This document shows, piece by piece, positions 14,902 through 15,000 of a stretch of DNA of 55,689 bases (position 1 is its first letter; every line of letters begins with the position of its first letter). Under the pieces are notes generated by a model. That model saw nothing but the letters and a program-made list of their open reading frames with translations, ran no database searches and was not told where the DNA came from. The position numbers and the translations under genes were made by a program. The stretch lies in assembly GCA_946407635.1 (NCBI GenBank), contig CAMJOZ010000003.1:1-55689 (forward strand). Direction: 5' to 3'. This DNA comes from an uncultured Caryophanales bacterium (lineage in GTDB: Bacteria; Bacillota_I; Bacilli_A; Acholeplasmatales; Anaeroplasmataceae).

Positions 14902-15000
14902 TTAATTATTGTCACACATGATATTATGACATCGCTTATCATTAATACTCATGCTACACATTCGGAAAACCATCCTTTTTCTTAAATTTACAATACTCAT
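14902..15000 (-). CDS. Short Met/Cys-rich leader peptide ORF upstream of metY
   Basis: A 32-codon frame with ATG at 15000 and TAA at 14902. GAGGTGATATT before the ATG is a very strong ribosome binding site. The peptide has five Met and three Cys (MCSM at 14-17, RC at 23-24 and MC at 28-29), unusual for such a short sequence. It lies wholly in the 5' leader between the promoter at 15021-15080 and metY. This fits a leader peptide that senses Met or Cys charging, or a small protein. No classical attenuator with a T-run is seen, but two alternative helices overlap the last codons: TGTCA/TGACA (about 14910-14931) and ATCATGT/ACATGAT (about 14893-14922). Function is inference. Confidence 0.6.
   Translation of the reverse strand: MSIVNLRKRMVFRMCSMSINDKRCHNIMCDNN

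Follow-up and report, generated by a model that had tools for sequence, protein, structure and literature searches.

A Cys/Met-rich leader ORF before metY as a candidate sensor of sulfur amino acids

Does a short ORF rich in Met and Cys codons, lying in front of a sulfur operon of an uncultured Caryophanales bacterium, sense the supply of the amino acids made by that pathway? The ORF lies in a 55,689-nt stretch of DNA (the window) from a genome assembly of 1.49 Mb that is 95% complete. The first gene after the leader is metY (14843-13557), which codes for an O-acetylhomoserine sulfhydrylase (TIGR01326, 626.7 bits against a cut-off of 495.1); metY and all other features described here are on the minus strand. 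Amino-acid sensing at the sulfur genes of Firmicutes is done by T-boxes and SAM riboswitches. To our knowledge, amino-acid-sensing leader peptides are rare in Firmicutes. A survey of 2010 found leader peptides hardly shown outside Proteobacteria and Actinobacteria (PMC2965389). Leader-peptide sensors are already known; no described family fits the Cys/Met leader before metY, and no description of such a leader in Firmicutes was found in the open-licence literature. The leader has the sulfur genes and the physiological signal in common with the Cys T-box and SAM (S-box) riboswitches of Firmicutes (PMC2940859), but gave no Rfam match at the gathering threshold, with the T-box and SAM riboswitch covariance models included, and its sensing would be by codons of a translated ORF. 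Below the threshold, only implausible eukaryotic families match.

The leader ORF and its codons

The leader ORF (MSIVNLRKRMVFRMCSMSINDKRCHNIMCDNN, 15000-14902) starts ~47 nt downstream of the promoter -10 box and is preceded by the Shine-Dalgarno (SD) sequence GAGGT (15011-15007). The initial annotation had described a 32-codon ORF with eight Met or Cys residues and a nearly perfect ribosome binding site before the sulfur operon. Both points agree with the sequence, in which five Met and three Cys codons make up eight of the 32 residues. The ORF thus carries codons for the product of its pathway, as in his/trp-type attenuators. Taken alone, it is modestly unusual: an equal count of Cys and Met codons occurred in 2.8% of same-ORF shuffles (p 0.028), and an equal count together with zero stops in 0.14% (p 0.0014). 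The reality of the ORF was settled by comparison with relatives.

The peptide has no match in Pfam or NCBIfam, and its use as a query in 40 relatives returned itself and two weak matches that, by sequence, lie inside other genes. The peptide evolves too quickly for such a search, and the leaders were located through metY instead. The sequences compared, mostly from metagenome-assembled genomes, comprise every metY locus of the genus whose upstream sequence was usable, together with four loci drawn from a second genus of the family and a second family of the order. A Cys/Met-rich short ORF is present in a like position in all 21 of these metY leaders, each rarer than ~1/100 shuffles (combined p 2e-36, for related loci and a test that includes possession of an SD). 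The ORFs are SD-led and 14-35 codons long, with L018, whose SD is GGGGAT, included by eye. Frame 0 of the 21 loci contains 58 Cys and 59 Met codons, about twice the expectation from dinucleotide shuffles (~27±4 (26.5) and ~25±4 (24.9), respectively). It contains no stop codon, compared with 42 and 86 in the other frames and 48 in the dinucleotide shuffles. The initial annotation had made its proposal depend on a frame conserved in relatives, which is what these counts show. The peptides themselves differ widely (for example MLMTDMCGCDCCSDMGGCK or MSSDCCCDMHMYKKNILKKENNQI) and have little in common beyond Cys/Met and CGA codons, indicating that codons and not a protein are kept. As judged from these comparisons, the leader ORF is real and its Cys/Met codons are selected in frame.

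An ORF in this position could also load ribosomes onto metY by termination and reinitiation, or make a small Cys-rich protein, without amino-acid sensing. In the genus, 18-75 nt separate the leader stop from metY. The Cys/Met ORF of L198 overlaps the metY start as ATGA, which points to translational coupling, and a gain in translation through reinitiation at leader genes has been proposed (PMC4833913). However, neither possibility explains the selection for Cys/Met and CGA, and the peptides of 14 to 35 residues are alike in little but those codons and have no protein family match. Both possibilities are unlikely.

The codons next to the Cys and Met codons are also biased. In the window, CGA-ATG-TGT (Arg-Met-Cys, codons 13-15, 14964-14956) is a putative stalling motif, and CGA-TGT (Arg-Cys, codons 23-24, 14934-14929) resembles the CGA-TGT-ATG of relatives. 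A later Met-Cys pair, ATC-ATG-TGT (Ile-Met-Cys, codons 27-29, 14922-14914), has the form NTC-ATG-TGY in nine leaders including that of the window. The leaders contain 33 Cys-Met or Met-Cys pairs, and CGA stands immediately before 16 of them. CGA accounts for 18 of the 36 Arg codons in the leaders, compared with 9 of 406 in the window (2%) and 7 of 567 in the loci of relatives. For Val, GTC makes up 7 of 209 codons in eight window genes. Among the tRNAs found, tRNA-Arg(ACG) is the only reader of CGN codons, and CGA was poorly translated in a bacterial his-leader assay (PMC4046918). CGA would sensitise the ribosome to scarce Cys-tRNA or Met-tRNA. The codon selection agrees with the Met/Cys leader first proposed, in which the conserved CGA had been overlooked; through this codon, the role of codon context in ribosome sensing could be tested directly and cheaply. 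A sensor based on sulfur-dependent 2-thiocytidine in tRNA-Arg was rejected, as no TtcA above the cut-off was found in the window's genome.

Similar ORFs were found outside the order. In 74 mostly clostridial metY leaders, where ORFs were picked by peptide motif only (RMC, MCC, MCxC or CMC), a Cys/Met leader ORF is present in 16 loci, compared with 1.6±1.2 after shuffling; the Ruminococcus loci are related, as are L048 and L049, and the independent cases are fewer than 16. CGA-ATG-TGY (CGA-RMC) occurs in 12 clostridial leaders versus 0.07 after shuffling. When matches of the pattern CGAATGTGYTGYTG in clostridial genomes were inspected, they proved to be metY leaders or to fall within other genes. 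In four Ruminococcus-like loci (L055, L061, L067 and L099), CGAATGTG is located in the loop of a GC-rich hairpin inside the leader ORF, for example CACCTG-CGAATGTG-CAGGCG.

Two described systems resemble the leader at the level of its codons. Cys-rich leaderless sORFs 5' of sulfur genes in mycobacteria are Cys-responsive and described as translation attenuation (Canestrari et al. 2020, as cited in PMC9094748 and PMC13236596). The window likewise has a short Cys-rich ORF 5' of sulfur genes. However, the mycobacterial sORFs are leaderless with runs of Cys codons, whereas the window's ORF is SD-led without a Cys run or polycysteine tract and has CGA-preceded Met-Cys pairs, a start-closing helix and no predicted masking of the metY SD. 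The uORFC-8-2 motif before cysS in Rhodobacterales (PMC8632094) is also a uORF with conserved Cys codons within an RNA stem, but has tandem Cys codons and an intrinsic terminator, neither of which is present in the window leader, and belongs to another gene and phylum.

RNA pairing over the leader start

Eleven leaders including that of the window (alignment A2) were used for structure prediction. RNAalifold, without prompting, predicted a pairing of 14 base pairs (helix I) between the ORF's 3' part and the stretch that runs from the SD spacer through the start codon to codon 2. In the window, helix I has 11 base pairs: its 5' strand (TGATATTATGA, 15007-14997) covers the SD spacer, the start codon and the next base, and its 3' strand (TCATAATATCA, 14929-14919) is a perfect complement. 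In 11 of 11 cases, no other site in the leader complements the start region as well as the helix I site does (permutation p 0.004 for matched pairs). A compensatory change, GAAATTATG with CATAATTTC, occurs in L019 and L021, and L016, which alone starts with GTG, carries CGC in place of the CAT seen in most other leaders. In the predictions without a ribosome, the start codon has an unpaired probability of 0.00-0.59 and is mostly paired in 10 of the 11 leaders.

The initial annotation had named two helices overlapping the last Cys codons, and missed helix I, the largest one. The overlap of RNA structure with these codons is borne out by covariation. The first helix, TGTCA/TGACA (hairpin II, 14931-14927 and 14914-14910), covaries in the 11 leaders, and the later Met-Cys pair lies in its loop. 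The second, ATCATGT/ACATGAT (14922-14916 and, after the stop codon, 14899-14893), is present in the window, but an analogue, TGTCAT/ATGACA, was seen by eye in only four relatives (L012, L014, L017 and L020). In a concatenated alignment of helix I and hairpin II, 95.8% of the cells are paired and six pairs change on both sides, compared with 1.8 after shuffling. The covariation score is 0.267 versus 0.138±0.027 for shuffled and ≤0.050 for slid alignments, with the slid comparison inflated by reading the structure from the same sequences and the shuffled one open to related rows, which can outscore shuffles even where no structure exists. Better evidence for the helices comes from the independent compensations.

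Helix I and hairpin II have AGTCA (5' arm) in common. Because these bases are shared, full-length helix I excludes hairpin II, and the TGTCA arm cannot be fully paired alongside it. With helix I shortened to 7 bp, an H-type pseudoknot with hairpin II can be drawn. In L024, the 3' strand of helix I is located 68 nt from the start, which is not a multiple of three, so that the frame is shifted while the pairing is kept. Thus, the RNA seems to be kept for itself, although an indel error in a metagenome-assembled genome could produce the same shift. Codons 25-29 owe some of their conservation to RNA pairing alone. Only 11 leaders, all of one genus, have helix I, which is absent from L008, L010, L011, L013, L015 and L018 and from the other genera; it cannot therefore be the general mechanism. 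In the clostridial leader L048, the SD pairs with CGA-ATG-TGT-CTC in a helix I-like manner (p 0.025, uncorrected for 15 tests). Across 55 genomes of the family, the RNA model R1 matched strongly only before metY, and the seven weak matches inspected look like chance. The one exact extra match of the short RNA pattern CATAATNTCATGTG examined elsewhere in the genus lies inside a membrane-protein gene.

The covariation of two helices that can be drawn together as a pseudoknot, the helix retained in L024 despite its shifted frame and the conserved CGATGTATG in the joining strand would also suit an RNA that is itself the sensor, with a metabolite- or protein-binding fold formed by the start strand, hairpin II and the conserved joining sequences, and with the ORF secondary. 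However, relatives without helix I and hairpin II still have Cys/Met-rich ORFs, no expression platform is seen, and even the lowered Rfam threshold yielded nothing plausible. An RNA sensor is thus rather unlikely. The odc1 motif (PMC8632094) provides a likeness, as an RNA structure with a pseudoknot controls the use of a uORF start codon there, but it belongs to alpha-proteobacteria, ornithine decarboxylase and adjacent start codons, with no known sequence relation.

Judging from codons and pairing, we consider it somewhat probable that the translated leader ORF senses a shortage of Cys (and Met) by ribosome stalling, with a start that closes itself. Upon scarcity of charged tRNA-Cys or tRNA-Met, ribosomes would slow at CGA-Met-Cys and CGA-Cys-Met, where CGA, read by tRNA-Arg(ACG), would act as a slow codon that sharpens the pause. 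During fast translation, the finished ribosome would free the 3' part of the ORF, which could then form helix I with the leader's own start and shut out new ribosomes. If the ribosome were instead held at the late Met-Cys codons (14922-14914), it would cover the closing strand, blocking helix I and keeping the leader occupied. Other causes may lie behind the Met codons, and a shortage of Met would slow every initiation event.

Possible action of the leader on metY

Across the order, no leader was found to have a terminator between its ORF and metY, in line with the initial annotation, and the same holds for 14 of the 15 clostridial leaders. The terminator match in L019 is the SD region of metY itself. 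Rho is absent from the window's genome, where two F1-ATPase subunits and nothing else match weakly, and Rho termination was rejected. Classical ribosome-mediated transcription attenuation, with termination when Cys/Met are plentiful, is very improbable given the missing terminators and Rho, although the clostridial L048 and L049 have a leader ORF (MNIIFAMLRRNYRNGRMCLCMCTR) followed by a strong intrinsic terminator before metY, which resembles a classical Cys/Met transcription attenuator.

In ErmC-like translational attenuation, the leader would fold onto the metY SD, and a ribosome stalled on the Cys codons would open it. The predicted SD accessibility indeed increases with a ribosome at the leader 3' end in L018, L019 and L021 and in the clostridial L095, L053 and L055. 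However, the metY SD is predicted to be open at every ribosome position in the window (0.84-0.89), leaving nothing for a ribosome on the Cys codons to expose, and is also open in most relatives of the genus; the intergenic sequence is A-rich and unconserved. Masking of the metY SD is thus unsupported as a common mechanism, and this form of attenuation is quite unlikely. In L195 and L196 of a neighbouring genus, TCCTTC after the stop is complementary both to GAAGGAG in the leader ORF and to the metY SD AAGGAG, a possible ermC-type translational attenuator.

With no terminator, no Rho, no Rfam match and an open metY SD, mRNA stability, reinitiation or an RNA sensor remain. Stability is favoured because the window's genome has two RNase J paralogues and long mRNAs of bacteria lacking RNase E, including Bacillus, are stabilised by ribosomes stalled close to the 5' end (PMC3997798). 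In the ermC/ermB leaders of Gram-positives, ribosome pausing in a leader ORF raises the stability or translation of the downstream mRNA, but the signal is an antibiotic and not amino-acid supply (PMC3997798, PMC5118997). The best-fitting action on metY is mRNA stabilisation by a ribosome that stalls close to the 5' end. The output is the weakest step of the stalling scheme, and the shielding is an argument from what is missing: stalled ribosomes would shield the operon mRNA from 5' decay, as for ermC in Bacillus, and sulfur amino-acid starvation would presumably raise the operon. The translation-sensing leader of the initial annotation, undescribed as it was said to be, gains from a conserved, codon-selected ORF outside any Rfam, Pfam or NCBIfam family, whereas the open metY SD does not favour it.

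A wider reading is tentative, and doubtful as a whole: a sulfur amino-acid sensor independent of terminators may extend over Bacilli and Clostridia, with hypersensitivity to scarce Cys- or Met-tRNA conferred by a rare, slow CGA before Met-Cys or Cys-Met, and with a start-closing helix that, in one genus, lets 5' ribosome occupancy switch mRNA stability. A Cys/Met leader ORF that is conserved before metY in an order of Bacilli and also in some Clostridia would represent a separate, mostly terminator-free solution.

Promoter, operators and gene cluster

The sigma-70 promoter of the operon (TTGACA-17-TATAAT, 15075-15047) matches the consensus at 12 of 12 positions. It is accompanied by two inverted repeats TCCTA-N9-TAGGA, one over the -35 box (TCCTATTGACATAGTAGGA, 15080-15062) and the other just past the expected transcription start (TCCTAGTTAAATAGTAGGA, 15039-15021). 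The second repeat occurs in most relatives' leaders and is conserved through the order, and both are likely Rrf2/CymR operators. An Rrf2-family regulator gene (8433-8006; PF02082, E 2.4e-36) lies between two cysteine synthase-like genes of the same gene cluster, which makes a CymR-like operator the natural reading. As predicted from these operators, which the initial annotation of leader control had missed, transcription is probably controlled too, and they would form a second, transcriptional layer.

The gene order after the leader is metY-ssu-cysK-rrf2-cysK. The genes 3' of metY code for a weak SsuA-like binding protein, a double metallo-beta-lactamase-fold protein, and an ABC transporter ATPase and permease. 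The tandem metallo-beta-lactamase-fold protein (12467-11232), located between the substrate-binding protein and the ATPase of this sulfonate-type transporter, is possibly a candidate for sulfur release from an imported compound. A TATAAT-like box and the half-site GCTAGGAAT just 5' of rrf2 (~8475-8440) suggest an internal autoregulated promoter.
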